Both the position numbers and the translations under genes were made by a program. Below the pieces are notes generated by a model. That model was not told the DNA's origin, made no database searches, and saw only the letters and a list, made by a program, of their open reading frames with translations. DNA of 64,000 nucleotides from an uncultured Alphaproteobacteria bacterium (GTDB taxonomy: Bacteria; Pseudomonadota; Alphaproteobacteria; UBA11222), in the NCBI GenBank assembly GCA_947258435.1, contig CAMYID010000012.1, positions 1-64,000 of the forward strand, in the 5' to 3' direction. Shown piece after piece: positions 18,375-51,814 of the stretch. Position 1 is the stretch's first letter. Each line of letters starts with the position of its first letter.

Positions 18375-18461
18375 TTTGACATTTAAACCAAAGTCAATCA
18401 AGTGCCGGGCGGGATCTGCCTGCGACCGGCCGGGAAATCTGCAGCGGGAGGAAACAGCATC

Positions 18462-26981: not shown

Positions 26982-27563
26982 TCAGCTCTTACGGGCAAAC
27001 TTCTCGGGGGCCGGGGGCGGGGGCCGCTGGTTGGTGGGCTGGCGCACAGCGCGCAGCCGGCTTGCCCTTTCCTGTTTCAGCACCATCGTATGCCTGAGCT
27101 TTATTGCGGTTTCCAGCAGGTTATCGAGATGTTCAATCAGGCGGTTTCCGGTGATCGCGTCATCGGACAATGTGCCCTGGTCAGCCAGCCCTTTTGCAAG
27201 ATTTTGCAGTAGGGCAGCGGTTTCCTCACCCAGCAGGGCCAGGAGTGCGGACCAGTGATGGCAATCGTCCTGGCCGCCCGCAATCGTTGGCATTTGCACA
27301 AGTTCGAAGCCGATCAGATTAGCCAGGGTCTGGGTCAGGATCGGTCGCCCGCAATCCCGCTCAAGATCGGCGACGATATCAGCGGGAATATGCAGCTTTT
27401 CGCGCGGATCGTAATAGCGCGACAGTTCACTGTGACCGACACGGGTAATCGCCGCCGCCGCCTCCAGCCCCCCGCACGCTTTCACAAGATGCCGTGTCGC
27501 CTGCTTCAGCCGGGAATATTCGTTGTCGCTGCAGGGGCGATGATCTTCTGACTGCAAATTCAT
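26982..27563 (-). CDS. Phage CII/CP76-like regulatory protein
   Basis: A 193-aa protein. Residues about 24-85 (LVKACGGLEAAAAITRVGH, then SELSRYYDP, HIPADIVADLER, PILTQTLANL) match the Phage_CP76/CII-type regulators, which have a helix-turn-helix in the GG..AA..TRV..S.LSRY region. The C-terminal part is helical and ends in a Pro-rich tail. It probably binds DNA. It lies upstream of the GTA genes next to mucR and has an AT-rich promoter region, so control of phage-derived genes is possible but not shown. Confidence 0.7.
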   Translation of the reverse strand: MNLQSEDHRPCSDNEYSRLKQATRHLVKACGGLEAAAAITRVGHSELSRYYDPREKLHIPADIVADLERDCGRPILTQTLANLIGFELVQMPTIAGGQDDCHHWSALLALLGEETAALLQNLAKGLADQGTLSDDAITGNRLIEHLDNLLETAIKLRHTMVLKQERASRLRAVRQPTNQRPPPPAPEKFARKS

Positions 27564-27942: not shown

Positions 27943-28038
27943 CTGCAATTGCGTGCTGTCAGTTTGCGTCGTTACGAGGCGTGTCCCGACATATGCCGAG
28001 TGAGCGACAGAGTGGACACCGACGGGATACCGACTGGA

Positions 28039-28446
28039 CTAGGACTTTCCGCGGCCTTTTTGACCCAGCCCCATCTGTTTGGCGAGCGCTGAACGCGCCT
28101 TGGCATAGTTCGGGGCGACCATGGGATAATCCTTCGGCAGGCCCCATTTCGTGCGATATTCTTCCGGTGTCATATCGTAATGGGCGCGTAAATGCCGTTT
28201 TAGCGATTTGAATTTCTTGCCGTCTTCCAGACAAATTATATAGTCAGGCGTGACCGAACGGCGTACCGAGATAGCAGGCTTGGCAGGTTCTTCTTCATCC
28301 GCGGCCAATCCCTGAGAAACATTATTCAAAGAGTTGTAAACATTCTGAACAAGTGAAGGAAGATCCCCTGCGGCAACTTCATTGTTACCCACATATGCAG
28401 AAACAATTTCGGCGGTCATATCAATTAATTTATTCTTATCATCCAT
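28039..28446 (-). CDS. mucR: MucR/Ros family transcriptional regulator
   Basis: This 135-aa protein has an N-terminal helical region and the C-terminal Ros/MucR DNA-binding domain: SVTPDYIICLEDGKKFKSL, RHLRAHYDMTPEEYRTKWGL and DYPMVAPNYAKARSALAK. In Ros the metal site starts CLEC; here it is CLED, a substitution common in the family. MucR proteins bind AT-rich DNA with low sequence demand and often repress surface, virulence or horizontally gained genes and their own gene. The long AT-rich region directly upstream suits autoregulation, and the GTA cluster starts about 1.6 kb away. Confidence 0.93.
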   Translation of the reverse strand: MDDKNKLIDMTAEIVSAYVGNNEVAAGDLPSLVQNVYNSLNNVSQGLAADEEEPAKPAISVRRSVTPDYIICLEDGKKFKSLKRHLRAHYDMTPEEYRTKWGLPKDYPMVAPNYAKARSALAKQMGLGQKGRGKS

Positions 28447-29014
28447 AGTCCTGTTCTTTCTTCAAGTAAGCCCGTGACCGGGACAATCTGCTGCAGCAAA
28501 TTCAGATAATTTGAATTCACCATTCTAAATTGCAGCGATTGCTTTAATTATTTCATGTTAACTAAGTGTTCTGCGAAGTTTGAGGTGGCGCCGATATTAT
28601 CCATCGCCAATTTATGTTATCCATTACCAATTTGATGTTTCATTCTTGAAAAATCACACCAAAACTCAAATTTCACTTTATTACTTTTGATTTCTAATAC
28701 TCCTTGCAAATAAATACAAGATATAAATTGCAGGAAAAAGCGGACACCTCATCAAGTTACAAATTTCCCAAGTAGAGTGCCCGGGCGCATCTCTAAAACG
28801 CCGCTGATTGCCTTATTCGCCTGCCATTGAATCAGACAGCATATTTGCAGACTTGCCAGGGTTGCCCGATATCTGCCGCTACATATCGCGCGGGCCTTGC
28901 ATTTTTCATTGTGGTGGTCGCGATGACTATTCTGCCGCTGTCAATACTATTGACATCATCGCCGAACTGCATATCCTTTAATAAGAATAAAAACCTATTT
29001 TTTTGGGGGTTTGC
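28447..29014. promoter_or_regulatory. AT-rich intergenic region between mucR and the DUF6456 gene
   Basis: This 568-bp stretch between divergent genes is much richer in A+T than the surrounding DNA, especially 28490-28740. It holds the mucR promoter, a tandem near-repeat at 28597-28636, and the promoter of the DUF6456 gene (AT-rich 28970-29005, ribosome site GGGGG before 29015). No convincing gene is present; a 63-codon frame at 28827-29018 needs a TTG start without a ribosome site. Confidence 0.7.
28597..28636. repeat. Tandem 20-bp near-repeat upstream of mucR
   Basis: TTATCCATCGCCAATTTATG is followed directly by TTATCCATTACCAATTTGAT, about two helical turns apart. Position (about 150 bp before mucR) and AT content suggest operator sites, possibly for MucR itself. 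Confidence 0.55.
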
Positions 29015-29830
29015 ATGACTGATCGGGATCGCGTCATATCTGGCCTGCTGGGCAAGCTGGCAGGGGATAATGCGCTTATCTGCAGAAAATATGAGGGTGC
29101 GGTGCTGTTGCAGCCCGCCGGTGAGGGGCAGTTGCGGTCGGCGGCTGACATCGATGCACAGTTGCTGGCAACGCTGGTGGCGCGGGAACTGGTGCAGAGG
29201 GTTGTGTGGGACGGCGCTTGCGACGGTGAGACCTGTTTCAGAATTTCACAGATCGGGCGGGCGTATCTGCGCCGGTATCAGGCTTCCGGCAAGGGGGGCG
29301 ATCCGTTTCGCGATCAGCATATGCCGGTTACCGCGGAACGGATGGGTACGGATATGCAGCGCCGCAGAAATCAGGCGGAATCGCCGTTGGAGTGGCTGTC
29401 CCGGCGCCGTGGAAAAGACGGTAAGGCGTTTATAAGCAAAGATCAATTCAATGCCGGGGAGCGGTTGCGGCGGGATTTTACTTTTGCGCAACTTGAGCCG
29501 CGCGTCACCGGTTCCTGGTCGCCGGTTGCGCGGGCCACCGCGTCGGGATTTGCCGGCGAGCCGGAAACAGGCGCACGGGCGGTTGATGCCAAACAACGGT
29601 TTTACCGGGCATTGGATATGGTGGGGCCGGGGCTTTGCGAGATCCTTGTGGAGGTGTGCTGTAACCTGAGTGGCCTGGCCGAGGCTGAGCGCAAGCTCGA
29701 CTGGCCGGCGCGCTCAGGCAAGGTTGTGCTTGGTATCGCGCTCGATCATCTGGTGCGGCACTACGGTATGGTTGCGACCGGTCCCGTGCAGGGCCGGATT
29801 CAGGGCGGTCCCGCGGAACGGGGAAAATAA
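29015..29830 (+). CDS. DUF6456 domain protein, possible GTA regulator
   Basis: A 271-aa protein. The N-terminal part (VISGLLGKLAGDNALI.. to ISQIGRAYLRRY, residues about 8-90) resembles a winged helix, and the C-terminal part has KAFISKDQFNAGERLRRDF and LEPRVTGSW, features of the alphaproteobacterial DUF6456 domain, followed by ALDMVGPGLCEILVEVCCN. It sits immediately upstream of the GTA promoter and terminase genes. By position it could be an activator of the GafA/GafYZ kind; this is inference. Start ATG 29015 is chosen because GGGGG lies in front of it. Confidence 0.72.
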   Translation: MTDRDRVISGLLGKLAGDNALICRKYEGAVLLQPAGEGQLRSAADIDAQLLATLVARELVQRVVWDGACDGETCFRISQIGRAYLRRYQASGKGGDPFRDQHMPVTAERMGTDMQRRRNQAESPLEWLSRRRGKDGKAFISKDQFNAGERLRRDFTFAQLEPRVTGSWSPVARATASGFAGEPETGARAVDAKQRFYRALDMVGPGLCEILVEVCCNLSGLAEAERKLDWPARSGKVVLGIALDHLVRHYGMVATGPVQGRIQGGPAERGK

Positions 29831-29844
29831 TAGGAATAAAATCC

Positions 29845-29873
29845 TTGACTTGTGTCACGCTCCCTGATATAAG
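29845..29873 (+). promoter_or_regulatory. Sigma70-type promoter of the GTA cluster
   Basis: TTGACT (29845-29850), 17-bp spacer, TATAAG (29868-29873). Five of six bases fit the consensus in each box. Transcription would start near 29880, leaving a leader of about 145 bases before the first terminase gene. Confidence 0.75.
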
Positions 29874-29885
29874 TCTTGTCATACT

Positions 29886-29989
29886 CGATAAATAGGTCAG
29901 CCGGCGGGTGTCGCATCAATGACTGACGGGGCAGCGGACGACTTCTGCGCTTCCGTTGTGTCGCGCACCGCTGTCGCCTGACCTTATCG
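29886..29989 (+). promoter_or_regulatory. Structured 5' leader of the GTA transcript
   Basis: CGATAA-ATA-GGTCAG (29886-29900) pairs with CTGACC-TTATCG (29978-29989): 12 bp with a three-base bulge, closing a loop of 77 bases. The loop contains further self-complementary GC-rich pieces. The element starts close to the predicted transcription start and ends 35 bases before the first gene. It could be a site for antitermination, attenuation or RNA stability control. Confidence 0.5.
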
Positions 29990-30024
29990 ATTACCCCAAT
30001 TTATGAAATTTCAGCGAGGCGGCC

Positions 30025-30561
30025 TTGGCTTGCAGGCGGATCGACTGGCGACAGGTGCGCGCTGACTATGAGGCGGGCGGGCAGTCAATTGCCGCGATTG
30101 CGCGACGGCATGGCATTTCGCGCAGCACCTTATATCGGCAGCGACGCAGGCAGGGATGGCAGAGCGGTGTGCAGACCGTGTCGCAAAACAGGGATCCGAT
30201 GGTGCAGGCCCCAAGGGCGCCAGCGGACGGGGCGGCCCGCGCCTCGGTGCGGATGATCGCCATCGTGAGCCGGATGACAGATCAGCTCGACGCGGTGCTG
30301 GCCGAAAGTGATATGGGCGCGATGTCGGCGGCCGACAGAAAGGGCCTTTCTGATCTGGTAACGAACCTTACCCGGGCGCTCGAAAAGCTTACCGCCCTCG
30401 AACGCGCGGATGGGCTGGCCGACGCTGTAACCGGTTCCAGATCTGAAAACACCGAAGCGGAGAGCCGCGTGCATGACATCTGGGACGATCTTCAACGCCG
30501 TCTGGCTCGCCTCGCAGACGCCGGCGGAGCGGCAGTGGATTCTGCGCCAACTGCCGGTTGA
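30025..30561 (+). CDS. GTA small terminase subunit (g1-like)
   Basis: A 178-aa protein with an N-terminal helix-turn-helix (SIAAIARRHGISRSTLYRQR, residues about 21-40), as in small terminases and resolvase-type HTHs, and a C-terminal helical oligomerisation region (DRKGLSDLVTNLTRALEKL). With the large subunit it would recognise and feed DNA into proheads; in GTAs this is with little sequence preference. The only suitable start is TTG at 30025, about 20 bases after an out-of-frame ATG, so translation may be weak. It overlaps the large subunit gene by 89 bases. Confidence 0.78.
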   Translation: MACRRIDWRQVRADYEAGGQSIAAIARRHGISRSTLYRQRRRQGWQSGVQTVSQNRDPMVQAPRAPADGAARASVRMIAIVSRMTDQLDAVLAESDMGAMSAADRKGLSDLVTNLTRALEKLTALERADGLADAVTGSRSENTEAESRVHDIWDDLQRRLARLADAGGAAVDSAPTAG

Positions 30562-31813
30562 TACGGTTACCGCCTTGCCCTGGTTGTGGCGTTTCTGGGC
30601 CCGGCCCGATCAGTTGCCGCCATCTGGCGAATGGACAAGCTGGATCATGCTGGGCGGGCGCGGTGCCGGCAAAACACGCGCCGGTGCGGAATGGGTGCGT
30701 GCCTCGGTCGAAGGGCGGACACCCCTGTCGGGCGGGCAACGTGGCCGGCTGGCCCTTATCGGTGAAACGCTGGCCGCGGTGCGCGATGTGATGGTGGAAG
30801 GCGAGAGCGGTATTCTGGCGATTTCCCCTGATTGGGCCCGCCCGAAATTCGAACCGTCAAAGAGGCGTTTAAGCTGGGGTAATGGTGCGGTAGCGCAGAT
30901 CTTTTCTGCGGACGATCCCGATTCCCTGCGTGGGCCGCAATTTGACGGCGCCTGGGCCGATGAGCTTGCCAAATGGCGCTATGGCCGGGAAAGCTGGGAC
31001 ATGCTGCAGTTCGGATTGCGGCTTGGGGCCGATCCCCGGCAGGTTGTCACGACAACGCCGCGCCCTGTGCGGCTGCTTCGCGAGCTGATGGCGGATCCGA
31101 ACAATGTGGTGACACGGGTATCGACCTATGCCAACCGGCCCCATCTCGCGCCGCAGTTTTTTCGCCGGATCATTGCGCAATATGAAGGCACGCGCCTGGG
31201 CCGGCAGGAGCTGATGGCCGAAATTCTGAGCGATAATCCCGAGGCGCTGTGGCGGCATGAGGATATCGATATGGCGCGTATTGTACGGCCGCCGCGATTG
31301 CGGCAGGTGGTCGTGGCGGTTGATCCGCCCGCCAGCGCACACAGACAAAGCGATGCCTGCGGTATCATCGTCGCCGGGATCGGTGAGGATGATGCGGGCT
31401 ATGTACTGGCCGATCACACGGTGCAGGGCGTTTCGCCGCGCGGATGGGCGGCGCAGGCGGTCGCCGCCTTTTACCGGCATGATGCCGCGCGTTTGCTTGT
31501 CGAGGTTAATCAGGGGGGTGACATGGCGGAAGCCGTGATCCGGCAGGTCGATGACCGGATTGCCATCCGGCAGGTGCGGGCAAGCCGGGGCAAGGGTGCG
31601 CGTGCCGAGCCTGTATCGGCGCTTTACGAGCAGGGGCGGGTGCATCATGTCGGCACATTGCCTGAACTGGAAACCGAGATGACCGAATTCACGGCCGGTT
31701 TCGACCGTCGCCGCGCTGGCTGGAGTCCGGACCGGGTCGACGCGCTGGTCTGGGCACTGACCGAGCTGATGCTGCAGGGCGAGGCGGGAAAGCCGCGTCT
31801 GCGGCGGCTCTGA
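30473..31813 (+). CDS. GTA large terminase (packaging ATPase/nuclease, g2)
   Basis: A 446-aa motor protein. Walker A is GGRGAGKT (residues 61-68), followed by RAGAEWVRA; the region around FDGAWADELAKW (about 160) is the Walker B/catalytic Glu site, and VVAVDPPASAHRQSDACGI (about 277) starts the RNase H-like nuclease with its first Asp; DRVDALVWALTEL near the end holds the last acidic residue. It packages host DNA into the GTA head and cuts it at headful. The start lies inside the g1 gene, needed to include the conserved LPWLWRFWARPDQLPP region. Confidence 0.93.
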   Translation: MTSGTIFNAVWLASQTPAERQWILRQLPVDTVTALPWLWRFWARPDQLPPSGEWTSWIMLGGRGAGKTRAGAEWVRASVEGRTPLSGGQRGRLALIGETLAAVRDVMVEGESGILAISPDWARPKFEPSKRRLSWGNGAVAQIFSADDPDSLRGPQFDGAWADELAKWRYGRESWDMLQFGLRLGADPRQVVTTTPRPVRLLRELMADPNNVVTRVSTYANRPHLAPQFFRRIIAQYEGTRLGRQELMAEILSDNPEALWRHEDIDMARIVRPPRLRQVVVAVDPPASAHRQSDACGIIVAGIGEDDAGYVLADHTVQGVSPRGWAAQAVAAFYRHDAARLLVEVNQGGDMAEAVIRQVDDRIAIRQVRASRGKGARAEPVSALYEQGRVHHVGTLPELETEMTEFTAGFDRRRAGWSPDRVDALVWALTELMLQGEAGKPRLRRL

Positions 31814-31836
31814 TCCATAAACCGGGAGGGAACTGG

Positions 31837-33057
31837 GTGAAAACCAATAGCTCATTATTGCGCCGTCGGCCAAAACGCGGCGCGCCGGCACGCAAGGACA
31901 GTGCGACCGGTCCCATGATCGCGCTGCACCGGCAGGGTGTGCCTGTCTGGACGCCGCGAAACTATGCGGAACTTGCGCGCGAGGGGTTTGCGCGCAATGC
32001 GGTGGCCTATCGCTGCGTGCGACTGATTGCCGAAAGCGCGGCGGCGCTGCCATGGCTGCTCTACGAGCGCGAAGGCGGACGTGAGCGGGAGCGTGATGAT
32101 CATCCGATGCTCAGCCTGCTTGCAAATCCCAACCCCTTGCAGTGCGGGCCTGAATTAATGGAAGCCTGGTACGGTTTTCTGATGATCTCGGGTAACGCTT
32201 ACCTGGAAGCGGTGGATATTGCGGCCCAGCCGCGCGAGCTCTATGCCTTGCGGCCCGACCGCATGTCTTTGATCCCTGGACCGCGTGGCTGGCCTGTCGC
32301 CTATGAGTATAGGGCGGGCGGCGGGAAAGTGCGCTTCGATATGGACCGTGCCGCCGGGCGTGAACCGATTCTGCATCTGAGACTGTTTCATCCGCTCAAC
32401 GATTATTATGGTTTTTCGCCGATCGAGGCAGCGGCTGGGGGGATCGATATCCATAATGCGGCTGGCAGCTGGAACAAGGCGCTGCTGGATAACGGGGCAC
32501 GACCATCGGGCGCGCTTGTCTATCATGGGACGGAAGGACAGAGTAATCTCAGTGAGGAACAGTTTGCGCGCCTGAAATCCGAGCTTGGCGACAATTATCA
32601 GGGTGCGGCCAATGCAGGCCGGCCGCTCTTGCTTGAGGGTGGACTTGACTGGAAGGAAATGTCCTTCAATCCGAAAGATATGGATTTCATTCAGTCAAAG
32701 AACATTGCCGCGCGGGAGATTGCGGCGGCTTTTGGCGTGCCACCGATGCTGCTTGGCATTACCGGTGACAATACCTATGCGAATTATCAGGAGGCGAACC
32801 GCGCTTTCTACCGGCAGACGGTGCTGCCGCTTGTGGGGAAAGCGGCGCGTGCGCTCAGCGTATGGCTGGGTCCGCGTTTCGGCGGCAATCTGCGGCTCTG
32901 GTACGATGCCGATCAGGTGGAGGCATTGTCCTATGATCGCGAATTGCTCTGGAAACGGGTGCAGAGCGCTGACTTCCTGTCGGTAAATGAAAAACGCGCG
33001 GCGCTTGGTTATGCGCCCGTCGAAGGCGGTGACGCGATCGCCGCGACAAATGGTTGA
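31837..33057 (+). CDS. GTA portal protein (g3)
   Basis: A 406-aa HK97-type portal protein. The core contains VAYRCVRLIAESAAALPWLLY (about residues 50-70, quoted in part as VRLIAESAAALPW), HPMLSLLANPN, and further on IAAAFGVPPMLLGITGDNTYANYQEANRAFY (in part GVPPMLLGITGD), all typical of the family. Twelve copies form the ring through which DNA enters and leaves the head. The start is GTG after GGGAGGGAACTGG. The stop overlaps the next ATG. Confidence 0.93.
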   Translation: MKTNSSLLRRRPKRGAPARKDSATGPMIALHRQGVPVWTPRNYAELAREGFARNAVAYRCVRLIAESAAALPWLLYEREGGRERERDDHPMLSLLANPNPLQCGPELMEAWYGFLMISGNAYLEAVDIAAQPRELYALRPDRMSLIPGPRGWPVAYEYRAGGGKVRFDMDRAAGREPILHLRLFHPLNDYYGFSPIEAAAGGIDIHNAAGSWNKALLDNGARPSGALVYHGTEGQSNLSEEQFARLKSELGDNYQGAANAGRPLLLEGGLDWKEMSFNPKDMDFIQSKNIAAREIAAAFGVPPMLLGITGDNTYANYQEANRAFYRQTVLPLVGKAARALSVWLGPRFGGNLRLWYDADQVEALSYDRELLWKRVQSADFLSVNEKRAALGYAPVEGGDAIAATNG

Positions 33058-33332
33058 TGCCGATGAGTATATCTGAAGACAAGAACCATAATGTCTGGCG
33101 GATCGACCGGCGGGTGCCGGCGATGATGTTTGTGATGTTGGCCCTGCAGATCGGTGCGGCGCTTGTGTGGGCGGGCGCGGTTGGACAGCGGATCGACCGT
33201 CTGGAAGCGGCAACCGACGACCAGGCCGTACTTGTCGAGCGGACGGTGCGGCTTGAGGAGCAGTTGCGCCATGCGCTGGGGCTGCTTGACCGGATAGAGG
33301 GGAAAATCGATAAAATCGACAGCCGTTCCTGA
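33057..33332 (+). CDS. Small membrane protein of the GTA cluster (g3.5-like)
   Basis: A 91-aa protein with one membrane segment (AMMFVMLALQIGAALVWAGA, about residues 20-39) followed by a coiled-coil-forming tail with repeated Arg/Glu (ERTVRLEEQLRHALGLLDRI). It begins within the portal stop (TGATG), so translation is coupled. Its counterpart in RcGTA is the small ORF g3.5 of unknown role. It is the last GTA gene before the acyl-CoA dehydrogenase insertion. Confidence 0.75.
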   Translation: MPMSISEDKNHNVWRIDRRVPAMMFVMLALQIGAALVWAGAVGQRIDRLEAATDDQAVLVERTVRLEEQLRHALGLLDRIEGKIDKIDSRS

Positions 33333-33388
33333 CGGTTTTCAAGGGGGTTCAGGGATGCCCGGTCGCATGCTAGATTGCGCGCAAATTC

Positions 33389-33406
33389 GCCGCCTTTGCG
33401 GCCTTT
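33389..33406 (+). terminator. Short hairpin with T-run after g3.5
   Basis: GCCGC (33389-33393), loop CTTT, GCGGC (33398-33402), then CTTTTG. A weak intrinsic terminator at the left boundary of the acyl-CoA dehydrogenase insertion. Confidence 0.5.
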
Positions 33407-33424
33407 TGTTGCGGAGCATAGCTA

Positions 33425-34624
33425 ATGGACTTATCGCTGACGCCTGAGATTAAGGCGTTTCAAATGGAAGTGCGGGAATTTATCCGCGAAAACCTGCCCG
33501 AAGAAATTATCGAGCATAATCCGGTGGGCTTTTCCTCTAACAAGGAAAATATCCGCCGTTGGCACAGGATTCTGCATGACAAAGGCTGGGTTTCGCCAAG
33601 CTGGCCGGTCGAATATGGCGGCACCGGGTGGAGCGCCACGCAAAAGTTCATTTTTGATGAGGAACTGAGCACTTGCGGTGCACCGCGGCTCTTGCCCTTC
33701 GGCTTGTCGATGGTGGGGCCTGTCATCTACAGCTTTGGCAGCGAAGCGCAGAAGCAGCAGCATCTGCCTGGTATCCGCTCGGGCGATACCTGGTGGTGCC
33801 AGGGTTATTCCGAACCTGGCGCGGGGTCCGATCTTGCCAATCTTAAAACGACGGCGGTTCGCGATGGCGATCATTATATCGTCAATGGCCAGAAAATCTG
33901 GACGAGCTACGCGCATCAGGCGGACTGGATTTTCTGCCTTGTACGGACAGACCCGGATGTGAAACCGCAGCAAGGGATTTCCTTTCTGCTGATCGATATG
34001 AAAACGCCTGGCGTTGAGGTAAAGCCCATTGTGTCAATCGACGGCTTGCACCATCTGAATGAGACTTTTTTCTCCGATGTGCGGGTGCCGGTCGAAAACC
34101 GGATCGGTGAGGAAAACAAGGGCTGGACTTACGCAAAATTCCTGTTGATGCATGAGCGGACAAGCATTGCAGGGGTCGCCGCCTCGCGCCAGAATTTGCA
34201 GCGTATTCGTCAGATTGCAAAACAGCCTGTGCCGGGCGCCGATACAGCCCTCATCGAGGACCCTGATTTCGCGCGAAAGCTTGCGGAAATCGATATCAAG
34301 TTGACCGCACTCGAATATACCAATCTGCGCAGCCTGTCCGATCAGGAAGCGGGGCGCGCGATGGGTGCTGAAACCTCGATGCTGAAGATTGTAGGAACCG
34401 AAGTGCAGCAGGCGCTGCAGGAACTTGCGGTTGAGCTTGCGGGTATTTATGCGGCGCCCTATGTGCCGCAGGCATTTGAGGGTAGCTGGAATGAGCCGCC
34501 GATCGGCCCTGATTGGGCCATGGCCGCAACCGGGCAATATGCCTTTGGTCGGGCGGCAACGATTTATGGCGGTTCGAATGAAATTCAGCGTGGCGTCATT
34601 GCCAAGGCGGTGCTTGGCCTTTGA
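33425..34624 (+). CDS. Acyl-CoA dehydrogenase inserted in the GTA cluster
   Basis: A full-length 399-aa acyl-CoA dehydrogenase of the large-subunit type. CQGYSEPGAGSDLANL (about residues 124-139) and YIVNGQKIWTSYAHQADW follow the family pattern, and IYGGSNEIQRGVIAKAVLG closes the protein. It has no role in a phage particle. It interrupts the GTA cluster between the g3.5 and protease genes, with a weak hairpin before it and a good terminator after it (34699-34735), so it looks like an independent metabolic cassette. It resembles the enzyme at 9516 in type, but is shorter and clearly diverged. Likely substrate: a branched or ring-derived acyl-CoA. Confidence 0.93.
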   Translation: MDLSLTPEIKAFQMEVREFIRENLPEEIIEHNPVGFSSNKENIRRWHRILHDKGWVSPSWPVEYGGTGWSATQKFIFDEELSTCGAPRLLPFGLSMVGPVIYSFGSEAQKQQHLPGIRSGDTWWCQGYSEPGAGSDLANLKTTAVRDGDHYIVNGQKIWTSYAHQADWIFCLVRTDPDVKPQQGISFLLIDMKTPGVEVKPIVSIDGLHHLNETFFSDVRVPVENRIGEENKGWTYAKFLLMHERTSIAGVAASRQNLQRIRQIAKQPVPGADTALIEDPDFARKLAEIDIKLTALEYTNLRSLSDQEAGRAMGAETSMLKIVGTEVQQALQELAVELAGIYAAPYVPQAFEGSWNEPPIGPDWAMAATGQYAFGRAATIYGGSNEIQRGVIAKAVLGL

Positions 34625-34698
34625 CATCATGGTGAACTGAAAAGGGTGTCTTCCCTGCCCGGCTTGCGGGTGTAGCGCAGGCCGGGATCGCAAACTTG

Positions 34699-34735
34699 AA
34701 AGGCGGTGTTCCGAAAGGAGTGCCGCCTTTTCTTT
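34699..34735 (+). terminator. Terminator after the inserted acyl-CoA dehydrogenase
   Basis: AAAGGCGG (34699-34706) pairs with CCGCCTTT (34723-34730), followed by TCTTTT. If efficient, it would stop transcripts coming from the GTA promoter before the protease and capsid genes, unless antitermination or a second promoter exists. Confidence 0.78.
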
Positions 34736-34772
34736 TCCGCCCTCTCAGGGGCCCAGGTTTCATGGAGCCAAA

Positions 34773-35474
34773 ATGCCAAGCGACATTTATTCAGCGCAAT
34801 CGGGGCGGCCTGCTCATCCTGTCACAGTCGCCCCCGAGGTGAAATTCACCCGTCTTGCGGTGGACCGTATTGCACAGGATGGCTCGTTTGAGGGTTATGC
34901 CAGTGTTTTCGGCATTACCGATCAGGGCGGCGATATCGTCGCGCCCGGAGCATTCCGTAATTCGCTCAGAAAACGGTCTGCCGGTCAAATCCGTATGTTG
35001 TGGCAGCACGATCCGTCTGAACCGATCGGGGTGTGGGACAGGATTGCCGAGGATGCGCACGGGCTGCGCGTTCAGGGGCGGCTGCTGCCCGATATCGCGC
35101 GTGCCCGGGAATTGCTTTCCCTGATGCGCGCCGGTGCGGTCGATGGACTGTCGATCGGCTTTAGAACGATCCGCGCAAGCCAGCAGACAGGAAAAGCTGC
35201 GCGCATGCTGATCGAAGTGGATTTGTGGGAAATCTCAATCGTGACATTTCCCATGAATGAAAGCGCGCGGATTGCGGCGGTCAAACAGATCGGGACGTTG
35301 CGTGAATTCGAAGCCTTTCTGCGGGAGGCAGGGGGGCTGACCCGGGCGGAAGCGAAACGCGTCGCTGCCCGGGGTTATGCGGGGATCGCGGAACAGCGGG
35401 ATGCTGGGCCTGAACTTGCGCAGTTTGTGCAAAGGATCCAGCGCGCAAAACAGCTATTACAACTGAAAGGATGA
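34773..35474 (+). CDS. GTA prohead protease (g4, HK97 family)
   Basis: A 233-aa serine protease of the HK97/U35 type. The core runs from FEGYASVFGITDQGGDIVAPGAF (in part GYASVFGITDQGGD) through MLWQHDPSEPIG (His near residue 78), DGLSIGFRT (nucleophile Ser near 129) and WEISIVTFPMN. It trims the capsid protein and itself during head maturation. A C-terminal helical tail (residues 185-233) is longer than the catalytic core needs. It starts about 149 bases after the inserted gene, beyond the terminator. Confidence 0.92.
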   Translation: MPSDIYSAQSGRPAHPVTVAPEVKFTRLAVDRIAQDGSFEGYASVFGITDQGGDIVAPGAFRNSLRKRSAGQIRMLWQHDPSEPIGVWDRIAEDAHGLRVQGRLLPDIARARELLSLMRAGAVDGLSIGFRTIRASQQTGKAARMLIEVDLWEISIVTFPMNESARIAAVKQIGTLREFEAFLREAGGLTRAEAKRVAARGYAGIAEQRDAGPELAQFVQRIQRAKQLLQLKG

Positions 35475-35478
35475 TCAG

Positions 35479-36762
35479 GTGACGAATGACATTGATGGCG
35501 CGACAAGTGCGCCTGAAAACAAAAGTCTGAGCCGGCCGGCAATTGGCGAGGTGCAGGCGGCATTCTCTGAATTCATGGAAAGCTTTGAGGAGTTCAAAAC
35601 GGCAAATGACCTCCGGCTGGCAGAGCTTGAAAGCCGCACCGGCAGCGATGTGCTGACTGAGGAAAAGGTCAGGCGCATCAACCATGCCCTTGATACGCAA
35701 AAAAGGGCCCTCGATGAGTTGACGCTTGCGCGCGGTCGCCCGGCGCTGGCCGGACAGGAAGACAGGGCCGGCCATCTCTCGCCGGTCGCCTGTGAACATA
35801 AGGCCGGTTTTGAAGGTTATATGCGTGCCGGCACCGATCAGGGATTGCGCGCGCTCGAGGCCAAGGCCCTGTCCGCCGGTTCCAATCCGGATGGCGGTTA
35901 TCTGGTGCCCGAGGAAACCGAAACCGCGATTGACGGGCTATTGCGCAAGGCTTCGCCTGTTCGTGCGCTCGCCACGGTGCGCAAGATCAGCGGCAACAGC
36001 TACAAGAAGCCCTTTGCGACAAGCGGTACCGCCACGGGCTGGGTTGGGGAAACAGGCGCGCGGACGCAGACCGATACGCCGACGCTGGCCGAGCTCGATT
36101 TTCCGGCAATGGAGCTTTATGCCATGCCGTCCGCCACGCAGACTTTGCTTGATGATGCGGCAGTCGATACAGAAGCCTGGCTTGCCGAAGAAGTGCAGGC
36201 CGCCTTTGCCGAACAGGAGAGCACAGCTTTTGTAACCGGCGACGGGGTGAACAAACCCAAAGGTTTTCTCGACTATACGACGGTGGCTAATGCCAGCTGG
36301 AGCTGGGGCAATGTCGGCTATGTCGCGTCAGGCGCGGCAGGCGCGTTTGCGGCATCCGATCCCGGTGACACGCTGATCGATCTGATTTACAGCTTGCGGC
36401 AGGCCTACCGCGCCAACGCGCATTGGGTGCTCAATCGGAATGTTCAGGCCGAAATACGCAAGTTCAAGGATGCGGATGGCAATTATCTCTGGCAGCCGGG
36501 AGTGCAAGCCGGGCAGCCCGCATCATTGCTCGGTTATCCTGTGAGTGAATCCGAGGATATGCCCGATATTGCCGCCGACAGCCTGAGTATTGCGTTCGCC
36601 GACTTTCGGCATGGCTACCTCATTGTCGACAGGCTTGGTGTGCGGGTGTTGCGTGATCCGTATACTGCAAAACCATATGTGCTGTTCTACACCACCAAGC
36701 GGGTTGGCGGTGGCATTCAGAATTTCGAGGCGATCAAGCTTATGAAATTCGCCACTAGCTGA
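35479..36762 (+). CDS. GTA major capsid protein (g5, HK97 fold)
   Basis: A 427-aa HK97-type capsid protein. The first 115 or so residues are helical and charged (scaffolding/delta domain, to be removed by the protease), with a mature start near LRALEAKALSAGSNPDGGYLVP. Conserved parts include GWVGETGARTQTDTP, ELYAMPSATQTLLDDAAVD and EQESTAFVTGDGVNKPKGFL (in part FVTGDGVNKPKGF). It would form the small GTA head. Start GTG or an equivalent codon just after the protease stop with AAAGGATGATCAGG upstream. Confidence 0.95.
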   Translation: MTNDIDGATSAPENKSLSRPAIGEVQAAFSEFMESFEEFKTANDLRLAELESRTGSDVLTEEKVRRINHALDTQKRALDELTLARGRPALAGQEDRAGHLSPVACEHKAGFEGYMRAGTDQGLRALEAKALSAGSNPDGGYLVPEETETAIDGLLRKASPVRALATVRKISGNSYKKPFATSGTATGWVGETGARTQTDTPTLAELDFPAMELYAMPSATQTLLDDAAVDTEAWLAEEVQAAFAEQESTAFVTGDGVNKPKGFLDYTTVANASWSWGNVGYVASGAAGAFAASDPGDTLIDLIYSLRQAYRANAHWVLNRNVQAEIRKFKDADGNYLWQPGVQAGQPASLLGYPVSESEDMPDIAADSLSIAFADFRHGYLIVDRLGVRVLRDPYTAKPYVLFYTTKRVGGGIQNFEAIKLMKFATS

Positions 36763-36768
36763 GTTCCC

Positions 36769-36812
36769 GGCAGGCTGCGCGGGAACCAAGTTGGTTTCTT
36801 GTGCGGCCTGCC
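36769..36812 (+). promoter_or_regulatory. Long hairpin between the capsid and g6 genes
   Basis: GGCAGGC (36769-36775) pairs with GCCTGCC (36806-36812) and inner AACCA/TGGTT pairs extend it; an alternative GTTCCCG/CGGGAAC stem overlaps. It is followed by CTCTTT. Placed after the capsid gene, it could protect the upstream mRNA or partly stop transcription, keeping capsid higher than connector proteins. Confidence 0.5.
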
Positions 36813-36862
36813 CTCTTTCAATTGCCTTTGGTTCAATCCGAAAGCCTGCGGGGTTCATTCAC

Positions 36863-37459
36863 ATGCCAATTGACTACAGCCTGAAGCTGCTGTCGCCACC
36901 GGTTGTCGAGCCGGTCACCGAAGCCGAGGTCATGGCGCATTTGCGCCTTGAAACAAGCGGGGAAAGTGCATTGCTGGACAGGTTGACGGCAGCGGCGCGC
37001 CGGCAGGTGGAAAGCTGGACCGGGCGTGCGCTGATGACGCAAAGCTGGCGCTGGTCACTTGATCGGTGGCCCGGTGGCCGCAATTGTATCCTTACACTTC
37101 CCAGGCCGCCAATGCAGTCGCTCGATCAGATTCTCCTGTTCGATGCGCAGGGACAGTCGGCTGTGTGGGATACGCAGAATTACGATGTGGATGCGGGAGA
37201 TGATCCGGCCCGGCTTCTCCTGCGCGTTGGCTGCCTGCCGCCGCAGCCCGGGCGTCAGATCGCCGGCATCGCGATCGATTTTACCTGCGGTTACGGCGTG
37301 GCGGGATCCGATGTTCCGGCACCGATCCGCCAGGCGATCCTGATGCTGACGGCCCATTACTATGAAAATCGCGAGCTCGCGGCCCCGGCTGACAGGACAA
37401 TGACTTTGCCGCAGGGCCCCGCTGCGCTGCTTGCACCCTATAAGGCTGTGAGGCTTTAG
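36863..37459 (+). CDS. GTA head-tail adaptor (g6)
   Basis: A 198-aa connector of the gp6/DUF-type found in GTAs. VVEPVTEAEVMAHLRLE (about residues 12-28) and RRQVESWTGRALMTQSW are the family's conserved helices, followed by beta strands and IRQAILMLTAHYYENRE. It binds under the portal. I place the start at ATG 36863 (MPIDYSLKLL); an earlier in-frame start at 36791 would run through the hairpin after the capsid gene. Confidence 0.88.
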   Translation: MPIDYSLKLLSPPVVEPVTEAEVMAHLRLETSGESALLDRLTAAARRQVESWTGRALMTQSWRWSLDRWPGGRNCILTLPRPPMQSLDQILLFDAQGQSAVWDTQNYDVDAGDDPARLLLRVGCLPPQPGRQIAGIAIDFTCGYGVAGSDVPAPIRQAILMLTAHYYENRELAAPADRTMTLPQGPAALLAPYKAVRL

Positions 37460-37461
37460 CC

Positions 37462-37782
37462 ATGATCGGTGATTTGCGGCATCGCATCACGCTGCAACAG
37501 GCGGTGGATACCCCGGATGCGGCCGGTGGCAACGCGCGAAGCTGGCAGGATATTGCGACGCTTTGGGCCGAAATCGAGCCATTGTCCGGTGGTGAGAAGG
37601 TTCAGGCGATGGCTGTTACGGCGACGCAGAAATACCGTCTGCGGCTGCGCTATCGCGCCGATATCACAACTGCGCAACGGTTCGTTCGCGACGGGCAGGT
37701 CCTCAATATTCATGCCGTCCGCGATCGGGATGAACGTCAGCGCTGGCTTGAATGTCTGTGCGAGTCTGAAACCGCCGGATGA
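37462..37782 (+). CDS. GTA head closure / stopper protein (g7)
   Basis: A 106-aa protein of the phage head-closure family: MIGDLRHRITLQQ at the start, WQDIATLWAEIEPLSGGE in the middle, and FVRDGQVLNIHAVRDRDER towards the end are the family's hallmarks. It sits between the adaptor and the tail terminator and closes the connector after packaging. It starts two bases after the g6 stop. Confidence 0.9.
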   Translation: MIGDLRHRITLQQAVDTPDAAGGNARSWQDIATLWAEIEPLSGGEKVQAMAVTATQKYRLRLRYRADITTAQRFVRDGQVLNIHAVRDRDERQRWLECLCESETAG

Positions 37783-37859
37783 AGCTGCGGGGGCCGGTTC
37801 CGATGATCCGCGTCCCGCTATCTCAACGACTGAAAATCAATCAAGGGGGGGGACAGCCC

Positions 37860-38246
37860 ATGACAGCGGCCGGATGGGAGCTGCAACAGGCGATCTATGC
37901 GCAGCTCGACAGCAATTCAAGTTATGCCGTCTACGACCATGTGCCGCCGCAGGCACCCTTTCCCTTTATCGTTGTGGGGGATGCGACGGCCAATGAGTGG
38001 GGCGCGGGCGAGCTTGATGGCGAAGAGCATGCGCTCAGCATACATATCTGGTCGCGCTATCAGGGTCGGATGCAGATGAAGCAGATGATGGGCGAGGTGA
38101 AGGCCGCGCTCGCACTGCCACTGCCGCCACTTACCGGGCATGTGCTCGTTGATCTCAGATTCGTCTTTGCCGATGAATTTCCCGACCCGGACGGGATTTC
38201 CCGCCATGGGGTCGTCCGGTTTCGCGCGCTTACCCATCCAGCGTAG
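37860..38246 (+). CDS. GTA tail terminator (g8, DUF3168)
   Basis: A 128-aa DUF3168 protein: LQQAIYAQLDSNSSYAVYDH, APFPFIVVGD and HALSIHIWSRYQGRMQMKQM are typical. It caps the tail tube and joins it to the head. I start at ATG 37860, preceded by GGGGGGG, which gives the family's usual length; a start at 37779 overlapping the g7 stop would add 27 untypical residues but cannot be excluded. Confidence 0.85.
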   Translation: MTAAGWELQQAIYAQLDSNSSYAVYDHVPPQAPFPFIVVGDATANEWGAGELDGEEHALSIHIWSRYQGRMQMKQMMGEVKAALALPLPPLTGHVLVDLRFVFADEFPDPDGISRHGVVRFRALTHPA

Positions 38247-38279
38247 GCGCGGTTTCAATCTACTTTCAAGGAGGCGCAT

Positions 38280-38693
38280 ATGGCGGCGCAAAAAGGAAGG
38301 GACCTGCTGCTCAAAGTGGACAGCACGGGAGCGGGAGCGTTCAGCACGGTCGCGGGTTTGCGTGCCCGGAGCCTGAACCTGAACGCGCGGCCCGTTGATA
38401 TTACCAATGCGGATTCTGCCAATGGCTGGCGGGAAATGCTGGCCGGTGCCGGAGTGAAAAGCGCGGCGATAAGCGGTTCGGGCGTGTTTCTCGATGCCGC
38501 AGCCGATGAAACCGCGCGCAGCTACTTCTTTAATGGCACGATCCGCGAATGGCAGATCATTTTGCCCGATTTTGGAACAATCGAAGGTCTGTTTCAGATT
38601 ACCGGGCTTGAGTTCAACGCCGACCATGACGGTGAAGTAAGCTACAGCCTGTCGCTTGAGAGCGCCGGTGAACTCAGCTTTGTGGCGGCTTGA
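38280..38693 (+). CDS. GTA major tail tube protein (g9)
   Basis: A 137-aa tail tube protein of the TP901-1/GTA type. GRDLLLKVDSTGAGAFSTVA at the start, RARSLNLNARPVDITNADS and WREMLAGAGVKSAAISGSG in the middle, and LEFNADHDGEVSYSLSLESA near the end match GTA g9 proteins. Hexamer rings stack to form the tail tube. The start follows AAGGAGGCGCAT, one of the best ribosome sites in the cluster, as expected for an abundant protein. Confidence 0.92.
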   Translation: MAAQKGRDLLLKVDSTGAGAFSTVAGLRARSLNLNARPVDITNADSANGWREMLAGAGVKSAAISGSGVFLDAAADETARSYFFNGTIREWQIILPDFGTIEGLFQITGLEFNADHDGEVSYSLSLESAGELSFVAA

Positions 38694-38695
38694 CT

Positions 38696-39076
38696 ATGGC
38701 AAACCGGCATCGCGGTGAAATCACTGCTTATTTCGACGATCAACCTTACATTCTCTGCCTCACGCTCGGCGCGCTTGCCGATCTGGAGGAGCAGCTCGGG
38801 GAAGAGGATATCCTGTCGCTTGCCAGGCGTTTCGAAAGCGGGCGGATCAGCGCGCGCGAGGCCCGAGCGGTTATTGCCGCGGGGCTGCGGGGGGCCGGGC
38901 ATACGCTTTCGGATTCTGAAATCGACAGATTGACTGCGGGTCAGGGTGTGCCCGGCTGGCTGGGGATCGTGATCGAACTGTTGCAGGCAGCTTTTGGTGT
39001 CACGACAACTGACGAACAGGCCGGGGCGCTGCCGGGGGAGGGGGCGCCTTTGTCCCCTTTCCCTGGCGGCGGGTAA
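38696..39076 (+). CDS. GTA tail assembly protein (g10)
   Basis: A 126-aa protein of the GTA-gp10 family: NRHRGEITAYFDDQPYILCL, GALADLEEQLGEEDILSLARR (in part) and ISAREARAVIAAGLRGAG are recognisable. Together with the next small gene it takes the place of phage tail assembly chaperones. It starts two bases after the g9 stop region and overlaps the next start by one base. The C-terminus is rich in Gly and Pro. Confidence 0.88.
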   Translation: MANRHRGEITAYFDDQPYILCLTLGALADLEEQLGEEDILSLARRFESGRISAREARAVIAAGLRGAGHTLSDSEIDRLTAGQGVPGWLGIVIELLQAAFGVTTTDEQAGALPGEGAPLSPFPGGG

Positions 39077-39315
39077 TGCAGGCAGGGCTTGGCCTGCTGC
39101 GTCTGACACCCGCCGCTTTCTGGACGATGACCCCTGTTGAGCTTCAAACCGCACTGGATGGGCTTTCCGGTGTAGCGCATCGGGGCAGGGCCGCGTCCGT
39201 GACCCGCGCCGATCTTGCGCGGCTGAATGCGCGGTTCCCCGATAAGGCTCCGCCCCCAATACTGGTGCCGGATTTGCCCAATAACCGAGAGAATGAACAT
39301 GGAAGATCGCGGTAA
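39076..39315 (+). CDS. GTA tail assembly chaperone (g10.1)
   Basis: A 79-aa protein: GLLRLTPAAFWTMTPVELQT, then SVTRADLARLNARFPDK. This matches the short GTA/phage chaperone family (TIGR02216-like) found between g10 and the tape measure gene. It starts at the last base of g10 and its end overlaps the tape measure start by 17 bases. It should help tape-measure folding or tail assembly. Confidence 0.85.
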   Translation: MQAGLGLLRLTPAAFWTMTPVELQTALDGLSGVAHRGRAASVTRADLARLNARFPDKAPPPILVPDLPNNRENEHGRSR

Positions 39316-39964
39316 CACAATGACTGCGCGGGAGAACGTGCAGCTGGATCTGGATTCAGACCGGCTCAAACGTAATCTGACGGAGCTGCGCGTGCGGACC
39401 CGCGAATTTCGTGAGGATCTGCGGGAGGTTTCGCGCGCGGGGCGTGAAACCGGGCAAACGCTCAGCCGCGCCTTTGGTGATGCGATTCTGCGCGGCAGGA
39501 ATTTATCCGATGTTGTTAAGGGGCTTGCCCTTCGGTTGAGCGAGCAGGCACTGAACCGGGCGCTCGATCCGGTGGGGGACGCGCTTGGCAATGCACTCAC
39601 AACGGGGCTTGAAGGGCTGTTCGCGCGCGGCTTTTCCTCGGTTCAGGCAAATGCAAGGGGTAACGCCTTCGCGCATGGCAAGATCGTGCCGCTAGCGCGC
39701 GGCGGGGTCGTTGACGGACCCACCTTTTTCCCGATGCGTGGCGGGGAAACCGGGCTGATGGGAGAAGCAGGGCCAGAGGCGATTATGCCCCTGACCAGAG
39801 GCGCCGACGGTAAGCTTGGTGTGCGCACCCGGGGCGGAGGACAGAATGCTGTCACGATCAATTTCAATGTCACGACACCGGATGCCGCAAGCTTCCAGCG
39901 TTCGGAATCGCAGATTGCAGCCATGCTCAACCGGGTTGCCGAACGCGGTGCACGCAATCAGTAG
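39299..39964 (+). CDS. GTA tape measure protein (g11)
   Basis: A 221-aa tape measure protein, short as in other RcGTA-like elements, consistent with a short tail. The N-terminal half is helical (VQLDLDSDRLKRNLTELR, then REFREDLREVSRAGRETGQ), the central segment ALNRALDPVGDALGNALTTG is hydrophobic, and GEAGPEAIMPLTRGADGKLG in the C-terminal half is a hallmark of phage and GTA tape measures. I start at ATG 39299; a longer reading from 39227 lies entirely within g10.1. Confidence 0.88.
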   Translation: MEDRGNTMTARENVQLDLDSDRLKRNLTELRVRTREFREDLREVSRAGRETGQTLSRAFGDAILRGRNLSDVVKGLALRLSEQALNRALDPVGDALGNALTTGLEGLFARGFSSVQANARGNAFAHGKIVPLARGGVVDGPTFFPMRGGETGLMGEAGPEAIMPLTRGADGKLGVRTRGGGQNAVTINFNVTTPDAASFQRSESQIAAMLNRVAERGARNQ

Positions 39965-39975
39965 GGGACGGAATG

Positions 39976-40608
39976 ATGGCCTTTCATGAAGTGCGGTTCC
40001 CCACCGGAATCAGTATTGGATCGCGTGGCGGGCCTGAACGGCGGACAGAGATCGTGACGCTTGGCAGCGGTCATGAGGAACGCAACAGCTCGTGGGCGGA
40101 TTCACGTCGGCTTTTCAATGCGGGTTATGGCGTCCGCTCGCTCGACGATATTTATCTCATCATCGCATTTTTCGAAGCACGCCGTGGCCGGTTGCATGGC
40201 TTTCGGTTTCGCGATTTCAGCGATTGGAAGTCGGGATCGCCAGGCGGTCTGATTACGCCGATGGATCAGCCGCTGGGGACAGGTGATGGTGCGACCACGC
40301 AATTCCAGCTCTCAAAAACCTATGCCAGCGGTTCGCAAAGTTACCTACGTCCGATCAGCAAAGCTGTTGCCGGCACGGTGCGGATTGCAGCCGATGCATT
40401 CGAGTTGACGACAGGAACAGATTTCGGCGTCGATAGCAGTACAGGGCTTGTGACATTCACCGCCCCGCCTGCCAGCGGTGCGGTGCTGACCGCCGGTTTT
40501 GAGTTTGATGTTCCGGTCCGGTTCGATCAGGACCGGCTGGAAATCGACCTGGCAAGTTTCAATGCCGGGCAAATCCCCGACATCCCGCTGAGGGAGATCA
40601 GAATATGA
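39976..40608 (+). CDS. GTA distal tail protein (g12, DUF2460)
   Basis: A 210-aa DUF2460 protein. AFHEVRFPTGISIGSRGGPE, GHEERNSSWADSRRLFNAGY (in part) and FFEARRGRLHGFRFRDFSDW are the family's conserved N-terminal pieces; FDVPVRFDQDRLEIDL closes the protein. It forms the ring connecting the tail tube to the baseplate hub. ATG at 39973 or 39976 is possible after GGGGACGGA. It overlaps g13 by four bases. Confidence 0.92.
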   Translation: MAFHEVRFPTGISIGSRGGPERRTEIVTLGSGHEERNSSWADSRRLFNAGYGVRSLDDIYLIIAFFEARRGRLHGFRFRDFSDWKSGSPGGLITPMDQPLGTGDGATTQFQLSKTYASGSQSYLRPISKAVAGTVRIAADAFELTTGTDFGVDSSTGLVTFTAPPASGAVLTAGFEFDVPVRFDQDRLEIDLASFNAGQIPDIPLREIRI

Positions 40609-41501
40609 AGCAAATCAATGCCGCATTTGCCGCGCATCTGAGTAGCGGTGTCACCACAATCTGTCATTGCTGGAAATTGACACGACGTGACGGGGTAAGC
40701 CGCGGCTTTACCGATCATGACCGGGATCTGAGCTTTGACGGGGTGAGTTATATGGCTGTCAGTGGTTTCACCGCGGGTATGATCGAAACCTCGCTGGGGC
40801 TTAGTGTCGATAATCTTGAAGCTGTGGGGGCGTTGAGCGATTTGAGCATCAGCGAAGCGGATCTTGCGGCGGGCCTTTACGATGATGCGGAAGTCCTGAT
40901 TTACCGCGTCAACTGGCAGGATACAGATCAGCGCGTGGTCATGCGCGCGGGCAATTTGGGTGAGGTGACGCGTGGTCCATCGGCTTTCCGTGCCGAATTG
41001 CGCGGGCTTGCCCATCGTCTCAACCAGCCGCAGGGACGGTTGTTTCAGTATAGCTGTGACGCCGATCTCGGAACACCGCGCTGTGGCGTTGATCTTGCGG
41101 GCACAGATTTTGTCGGGACAGACATTGTTGCCGCCCCGATCACCCCCGATATCCGTCGCCGCTTTTCTGCTCAGTCGCTTGACGGCTTTGCCAATGGCTG
41201 GTTCAGCCGCGGCCGGCTGTCATGGCAGTCCGGCGTCAATACCGGGCTGTCGATGGAGGTAAAACTGCATACAAATTCCGCCGGTATTGTCAGCTTCGAA
41301 TTGTGGCGCGACATGCCAGCCGATATCGCCGCCGGTGACAGCTTTACGGTGAGCGCGGGTTGCGACAAGCAGTTCAGCACCTGCAGCGCCAAATTTGCAA
41401 ATGCCGTCAATTTTCGCGGTTTTCACCTGATGCCGGGAAATGACTGGGTGCAGTCATACCCCTCCCAGGGCGAAGGTAATGACGGGGGAAGCCTGCGATG
41501 A
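40605..41501 (+). CDS. GTA baseplate hub protein (g13, DUF2163)
   Basis: A 298-aa DUF2163 protein. WKLTRRDGVSRGFTDHDRDL (about residues 23-42) and the C-terminal FHLMPGNDWVQSYPSQ are family signatures. Four Cys in YSCDADLGTPRCGVDL and CDKQFSTCSAKF match the positions that hold an iron-sulfur cluster in the GTA hub structure, as far as I recall. It forms the trimeric hub at the tail tip. It overlaps both neighbours by four bases. Confidence 0.92.
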   Translation: MKQINAAFAAHLSSGVTTICHCWKLTRRDGVSRGFTDHDRDLSFDGVSYMAVSGFTAGMIETSLGLSVDNLEAVGALSDLSISEADLAAGLYDDAEVLIYRVNWQDTDQRVVMRAGNLGEVTRGPSAFRAELRGLAHRLNQPQGRLFQYSCDADLGTPRCGVDLAGTDFVGTDIVAAPITPDIRRRFSAQSLDGFANGWFSRGRLSWQSGVNTGLSMEVKLHTNSAGIVSFELWRDMPADIAAGDSFTVSAGCDKQFSTCSAKFANAVNFRGFHLMPGNDWVQSYPSQGEGNDGGSLR

Positions 41502-41935: not shown

Positions 41936-41952
41936 TTCAGGGCATCTGCATT

Positions 41953-46636: not shown

Positions 46637-46756
46637 GCCGCTGTCAGCGCGTCCTTGTTGCGAGCCGGAGACCCACTGATCGGTTCTGTGTACAACTTTG
46701 GTTTTTCTGTCCATGATGGCGCAAATTCAAAGAATGCGGTTGGTGGGGAGAAATCG

Positions 46757-47557: not shown

Positions 47558-47602
47558 CAAGCGTCCGGCACAAAACAGATAAGAGTAAAGGGAGGAATTG
47601 TA

Positions 47603-48400: not shown

Positions 48401-48409
48401 GAGGGGAAT

Positions 48410-51748: not shown

Positions 51749-51814
51749 AGCGGTTCGCGCATCTGTCCGGCCCATGTCATAGTGCGGCCCATGATCGACA
51801 ACAGGGAGGACGAT

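Follow-up and report, generated by a model that had tools for sequence, protein, structure and literature searches.

An acyl-CoA dehydrogenase (ACAD) gene lies inside the head operon of a gene transfer agent (GTA) in the window, the 64,000-nucleotide stretch of alphaproteobacterial DNA that was analyzed here. It is located between genes g3.5 and g4 and is followed by a terminator-like hairpin. We consider it probable that the GTA acquired the ACAD long ago as a cargo gene, since domesticated, much like a phage moron, that the ACAD sits in a segment of the operon transcribed without antitermination, and that genes g4 to g15 need read-through of the GafZ type.

The gene transfer agent cluster

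The cluster is of the RcGTA type and contains the head and tail genes g1 to g15 in order, including the GTA megatron (NF048004, 1829.6 bits, cut-off 800). The models TIGR02217, TIGR02218, and TIGR02219 all score above their cut-offs, and the tape measure model NF058675 falls slightly below its own (203 versus 220). By its genes, the cluster is a real RcGTA-type GTA.

The features listed in this paragraph are all on the forward strand. A gafZ-like gene with a DUF6456 domain (29003-29830; PF20057, 170 bits, cut-off 26.3), a candidate antiterminator, is followed by g1 (30025-30561), which encodes a helix-turn-helix protein at the small-terminase position and precedes TerL in relatives as well. 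The large terminase gene g2 (30473-31813; PF03237 and PF17289), the portal gene g3 (31837-33057; TIGR01537, 237.7 bits), and g3.5 (33054-33332) come next. A 92-nucleotide spacer (33333-33424) separates g3.5 from the ACAD gene (33425-34624), and an 11-bp hairpin (34658-34686) and a hairpin with a T-run resembling an intrinsic terminator (34699-34738, with the hairpin itself at 34699-34730) separate the ACAD gene from g4 (34773-35474), the HK97-type prohead protease gene (TIGR01543, 131.6 bits, cut-off 59). The major capsid protein (MCP) gene g5 (35479-36762; TIGR01554, 429.6 bits) is followed by a second internal terminator-like hairpin (36755-36794; -21.0 kcal/mol) and by g6 to g15 (36863-45924), with the megatron g15 at 41953-45924. 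An Rfam scan of 28000-47000 returned no match. The 92-residue g3.5 protein matched no Pfam or NCBIfam family; it is 100% identical in G001, a genome of the same genus, and with zero amino acid changes between these two species at a dS of 0.75, no other cluster gene in the comparison is as strongly constrained.

The observation in an earlier note on this DNA that catabolic genes flank the cluster on both sides holds. Upstream are two ACAD genes (8340-9500 and 9516-10772) and a FadB-like gene (18402-20537), and downstream are three SDR genes (46655-49201) and an enoyl-CoA hydratase gene (51782-52594). Far upstream of the GTA, a 785-residue protein with Phage-tail_3 and GpJ FNIII domains (4217-6574) may be part of another phage remnant. 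Additionally, two related genomes, G004 and G005, carry approximately 2.7 kb with several phage-like ORFs between g5 and g6 (L163 2006-4668 and L164 4565-7284), a block that neither the window nor G001 has.

The acyl-CoA dehydrogenase

The earlier note had described a complete ACAD gene between g3.5 and the prohead protease gene, and this description is correct: the gene is an open frame of 399 codons whose product matches all three Pfam acyl-CoA dehydrogenase domains (N-terminal, middle, and C-terminal) above the cut-offs, and the gene that follows it matches the protease model. The protein is of the PimC/FadE26 (alpha-subunit) type. Its closest solved structure is 4x28_A (E = 5.7e-62), which we take to be the structure of ChsE4, and Glu244 of the ACAD, at the helix-G position, is aligned with residue 247 of that structure, presumably the catalytic glutamate. 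The sequence H-E-R is found at this position in seven of the eight GTA-borne ACADs; the eighth, from G005, is unreadable there. The alpha subunit of the ChsE4-ChsE5 enzyme is described as carrying the catalytic glutamate (PMC11153573). The best NCBIfam model is TIGR03204 (pimC_large), with a score of 457.8 bits against a cut-off of 623.85. The GTA-borne ACADs thus share the three domains, the helix-G glutamate, and the closest model with PimC and FadE26 (ChsE4), but differ from these in the score below the cut-off, so that the likeness to PimC does not fix the substrate, and in having no adjacent beta-subunit gene. Neither a PimD/FadE27-like gene beside the ACAD nor a second ACAD gene at the g3.5-g4 junction was found, the neighbors of the GTA-borne ACADs being g3.5 or other ORFs on one side and g4 on the other.

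The GC content of the window's ACAD gene (0.554) is lower than that of the portal (0.598) and MCP (0.586) genes, as it is in L031, the G001 locus, and it lies between or above the portal and MCP values in loci L219, L220, and L235. GC content was rejected as a mark of foreign origin, since it does not differ consistently from that of the neighboring genes.

Distribution, age, and selection

In the genome set compared, the window's order is represented by six genomes of one family, and all of the relatives are draft MAGs or contigs. The ACAD gene is present between g3.5 and g4 in each of the three genomes with a readable junction (the window's genome, G001, and G005), which are the three of the six in which g3.5 was found. 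The G001 protein, encoded in the same place, shares 96% amino acid identity with that of the window. In G005, which belongs to another genus, the gene follows the portal gene and g3.5 and is present as two pieces flanking a run of N, with 72% and 88% identity. The contigs of G004 end on either side of the junction and g3.5 was not found, the G002 contig ends after gafZ and g1, and G003 has lost the GTA cluster. A relic of the cluster remains at 14086-14736 of L156 (G003:C11), where TerL, matched over its initial residues 3-99, runs into the end of the DUF2793 gene (from residue 130); gafZ and g1 are still there and g2 to g15 and the ACAD gene are gone.

Five IMG/VR contigs also carry the ACAD gene between g3.5 and g4. 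One (L145) was found with the sequence of the ACAD itself and the others (L219, L220, L221, and L235) by a portal search. In two surveys, the ACAD was at the junction in 2 of 97 loci with portal and protease genes (L031 and L145, both of the window's genus) and in 4 of 83 loci from IMG/VR, all within the window's clade, and no ACAD was found in the GTAs of other orders among these 97 and 83 loci. One IMG/VR contig, L222, has g3.5 and g4 and no ACAD gene, and retains the visible GTA genes g1 to g5. The ACADs of L220 and L221 are identical in their N-terminal part, after which L221 resembles L219, a pattern that points to recombination or to a chimeric assembly.

Among 31 ACADs placed in a phylogenetic tree, those borne by GTAs, eight in number, form a single clade (100/98), and its sister is an ACAD of G014 that is encoded remote from that genome's GTA (94/90). 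A first tree, which had long branches and was rebuilt without the distant rows, gave 96/94 for the latter relationship. The window's order likewise forms one clade (100/100), with L222 nested within it, when the tree is built on TerL, portal, protease, and capsid proteins from 20 loci, and this GTA tree recovers the same groups as the ACAD tree. Parsimony on the GTA tree needs two changes. Based on the two trees, the ACAD was captured once, with at least one loss (L222), and one gain and one loss is the simplest history. By its distribution and phylogeny, the ACAD is an old capture, ancestral to two genera and passed down together with the GTA throughout the order as sampled. The proposal that the cassette came from the local pathway is not supported: the nearest kin are in G014 (64% identity) and on other contigs of the window's own genome (58% and 57%), whereas none of the ACADs that neighbor the cluster on its own contig exceeds 37% identity to the GTA-borne protein.

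Comparison of the window with G001 gave dN/dS values of 0.033 (ACAD), 0.036 (MCP), 0.041 (portal), 0.143 (protease), and 0.163 (g6), ratios that are rough as the synonymous distances are high (0.7-1.2). As judged by these ratios, the ACAD is under strong purifying selection, as strong as that on the capsid gene. A recent origin or decay of the ACAD was rejected on dN/dS. The earlier note regarded the gene as an interrupting insertion and proposed a comparison with the clusters of relatives; these share the gene across the sampled order in position and age, and together with the purifying selection this points instead to one old capture.

The terminator-like hairpin upstream of g4

The clear terminator that had been noted behind the ACAD gene is borne out as a structure. 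The hairpin at 34699-34730 has a predicted stability of -19.7 kcal/mol and is followed by TCTTTTCC. Only 4 of 177 hairpins with a T-run were at least as stable in a control of 182,968 bp of coding sequence, sampled from 200 genes of this genome, and approximately 0.003 such hairpins are expected by chance in a spacer as long as this one. A simple consensus terminator scan did not list this hairpin and returned 13 sites in total, which is not above chance (15.4, sd 3.3, in shuffles). That scan told little, and folding, controlled against coding, antisense, and shuffled sequence, was used in its place. G001 keeps the hairpin at -25.2 kcal/mol, with one G-T pair changed to G-C. In the 11-bp hairpin just upstream, all 11 pairs are kept in G001, where one pair has changed on both sides (T-A to C-G) and a wobble has become a G-C type pair.

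Terminator-like sites were found in the sense orientation at 8 of 20 g3.5-protease junctions, a set that includes copies, and in the antisense orientation at 1 of 20. When all GTA junctions were scanned, such sites occurred far more often along the operon than against it. Additionally, we examined 27 loci, comprising every locus listed with both g3.5 and g4 in the 97- and 83-locus surveys plus L163; another 80 loci were left out. Four loci had been dropped before the count: L145 (a near-copy of L031), L188 (a copy of L066), L190 (a copy of L162), and L192 (which has the hairpin of L044). A hairpin within 200 nucleotides upstream of g4 is present in the sense orientation in 19 of the 27, against 2 in the antisense orientation and a mean of 2.25 loci (maximum 6) in 40 rounds of dinucleotide shuffling, and eight loci have none; this test was not blind, some hairpins having been seen beforehand, and kinship among the loci means that the 19 represent fewer independent events.

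Twenty of the loci are known to have no ACAD, and 12 of these, including Parvibaculaceae, have the hairpin before g4. In L222, L162, L044, L047, and others, g3.5 is followed by the hairpin and then g4, with nothing in between, and L222, which is nested within the ACAD-bearing clade, retains the hairpin, the T-run, and the g4 start. Ten loci of two orders align from the stem to the start of g4, with conserved GGGGCGC, T-run, and GGAG elements. The hairpin of the window and G001 differs in sequence from this ten-locus core, lies 42-55 nucleotides upstream of g4, and would be homologous to those of the other loci by position, not by alignable sequence. Judging from these junctions, the terminator-like hairpin before g4 is older than the ACAD capture. 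The same kind of hairpin in ACAD-less loci of two orders thus suggests that the ACAD was inserted between g3.5 and a pre-existing terminator, and it speaks against the idea that the cassette brought a terminator of its own.

Terminator-like sites are also found at the MCP-g6 junction, in the sense orientation in 19 of 79 loci and in the antisense orientation in 5. A strong one follows the MCP gene in L163 (at about 2006-2060). The hairpin after the capsid gene may set the ratio of capsid to tail.

A candidate antiterminator

The DUF6456 (PF20057) gene, which has homology to the GafA C-terminus, is just ahead of g1 in the window, and each of the order's six genomes has a member of the family. 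Among 14 named control genomes, it was found only in Caulobacter vibrioides, where the match is presumably GafZ itself. In Caulobacter, GafZ is an experimentally supported antiterminator that allows RNA polymerase to pass terminators inside the CcGTA cluster, and also to pass the E. coli rrnB T1 terminator (PMC11150451). The window's gene evolves rapidly (59% amino acid identity to G001, dN/dS 0.26) and is a candidate GafZ antiterminator, an assignment made by one domain and by position. Near gafZ in both the window and G001, a gene on the reverse strand (26982-27563) encodes a 193-residue protein that is present in all six genomes of the order and is a candidate GafY; it matched no Pfam or NCBIfam model.

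Proposed model and alternatives

We propose that a single capture in the ancestor of the order would have placed the ACAD between g3.5 and a terminator that already preceded g4, and that this ancestral terminator would now form the 3' end of the ACAD unit. As the ACAD lies upstream of the terminator, it would be part of a segment, g1-g3.5-ACAD, that RNA polymerase can transcribe as far as the terminator with no need for GafZ. Genes g4 to g15 would be reached only by means of a GafZ-type antiterminator, past the terminator before g4 and the one after g5. The enzyme could then be produced in cells that make no particles, and the GTA would not be broken by the gene. The ACAD may also have a promoter of its own. 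Termination at the hairpin, read-through by GafZ, and the timing of ACAD expression are parts of this model that we infer, the dependence of g4 to g15 on GafZ from antitermination in Caulobacter together with the DUF6456 gene ahead of g1. The eight hairpin-less loci, the rapid evolution of the gafZ-like gene, and the positional homology of the hairpin in the window and G001 count against it. The earlier note offered a choice between split and antiterminated expression. The ACAD and the terminator do separate g1 to g3.5 from g4 to g15, and, given the DUF6456 gene, antitermination is the likeliest means of passing the terminator; a split or silenced GTA is very improbable.

A fairly unlikely alternative is that the ACAD is an autonomous moron expressed from its own housekeeping promoter in the 92-nucleotide spacer, with the terminator shielding the capsid genes and the GTA promoter uninvolved. 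This spacer is identical to that of G001 at 68 of 92 positions and contains TGCTAGATT, a putative extended -10 element. TGCTAGGTT is at the same place in G001 and the related TACTAGACT is in G005. In 464 kb of the genome, CTAGA occurs 2.9 times per 10 kb upstream of tandem genes and 0.22 times in the sense strand of coding sequence, and control of their own transcription is usual in morons (PMC2920897). The enrichment is in the sense orientation and its counts are small, however (9 versus 3 on the reverse strand), there is no -35-like TTGACA near the element, and a sigma-70 scan gave no site in the spacer. Additionally, a similar element is not obvious in L219, L220, L221, or L235, and the terminator was not brought in by the ACAD gene. 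The weak hairpin with a T-run that the earlier note placed in this spacer is present (33389-33402) and as weak as claimed, with a 5-bp stem that is unchanged in G001 and a loop that differs; by itself it is not above chance.

We think it improbable that the ACAD serves the GTA program itself, being co-induced with the particle genes and altering, for example, an acyl signal or the pools of acyl-CoA or lipids in producing cells. The ACAD has been kept in one place with the GTA, it is gone along with the cluster in G003, where no GTA-type copy is among the matches listed, and its constraint equals that of the capsid gene. Yet L222 has lost the ACAD and keeps its visible particle genes, the GTAs of other orders in the surveys do without it, and since producing cells die a catabolic enzyme would have little time to pay.

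The possibility that the hairpin is a translational or processing element before g4, in an operon that is simply read through, is quite improbable. In the ten aligned loci the hairpin and T-run abut the conserved GGAGA and the g4 start and could gate ribosome binding, but the stem is followed by 5-8 T on the sense strand, antisense sites are rare, and in the window and G001 the element is well removed from g4. That the ACAD came recently from the catabolic genes nearby and, by interrupting the GTA, split or silenced it is very improbable, for despite the catabolic genes on either side and the terminator-like hairpin between the two halves, the ACAD is common to the sampled order as one clade, the downstream genes are under purifying selection, the terminator predates the ACAD, and the ACADs near the cluster are only distant kin.

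Comparison with known systems

According to PMC2920897, morons lie between adjacent phage genes, usually have their own transcription control and a different GC content, and sometimes occur in several phage classes. Like prophage morons, for example the metabolic ones of Burkholderia described there, the GTA-borne ACAD is an extra gene between neighboring genes at a site that is occupied or empty and that holds varied cargo. Unlike these, it resides in a GTA, is conserved over the sampled order in one class of element, precedes a terminator ancestral to the GTA, and has a GC content that is not consistently different. From these comparisons the ACAD would work like a moron without being a typical one.

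The closest parallel for the operon is the Caulobacter crescentus GTA (PMC11150451), which likewise has a terminator dividing the operon internally and a gene of the GafZ family. In Caulobacter, terGTA consists of 150-bp repeats that follow the first gene, whereas the window has a short classic hairpin before g4, with a captured metabolic gene ahead of it, and its read-through is predicted. The ACAD also resembles phage auxiliary metabolic genes, since a structural operon of phage type encodes a metabolic enzyme, but the ACADs of phage collections are at most about 30% identical to it among the matches listed, several of which come from records of doubtful phage origin. A GTA, unlike a phage, does not selectively replicate its own genes. 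In the literature on GTAs that was seen, in part and with most subscription journals outside its scope, there was no such case under acyl-CoA dehydrogenase, terminators, g3.5 insertions, auxiliary metabolic genes, or insertions into the cluster. The cysE gene near roseobacter GTAs is a neighbor of the cluster and, from the text available, apparently not inside the head operon (PMC8224337).

Implications

GTAs are usually regarded as purified relics that retain particle genes only. The ACAD is a metabolic gene retained in a GTA head operon since before the split of two genera, under selection like that of the capsid. We tentatively suggest, as a possibility that goes further than the model above, that in two or more orders of Alphaproteobacteria the GTA operon works in two stages, its first segment being a place where cargo genes can land and be expressed without lysis. 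The conserved g3.5-g4 terminator would keep the capsid genes apart from this leaky first segment, and only antitermination would commit the cell to particles. Other cargo is present at this junction: two extra ORFs before the ACAD in L219 (3458-4347), one of which has a DUF2335 domain, two extra ORFs with no Pfam match in L235 (4585-5567), and, outside the order, an Imm-NTF2-2 immunity-like ORF on the opposite strand in L224 (2042-2425).

The five IMG/VR contigs illustrate why contigs with a GTA-borne ACAD may pass for viruses with metabolic genes. The ancient terminator before g4 suggests that antitermination of the Caulobacter type is a wider design of alphaproteobacterial GTAs. If the two-stage reading is true, a domesticated phage would be a stable home for metabolic genes of its host.
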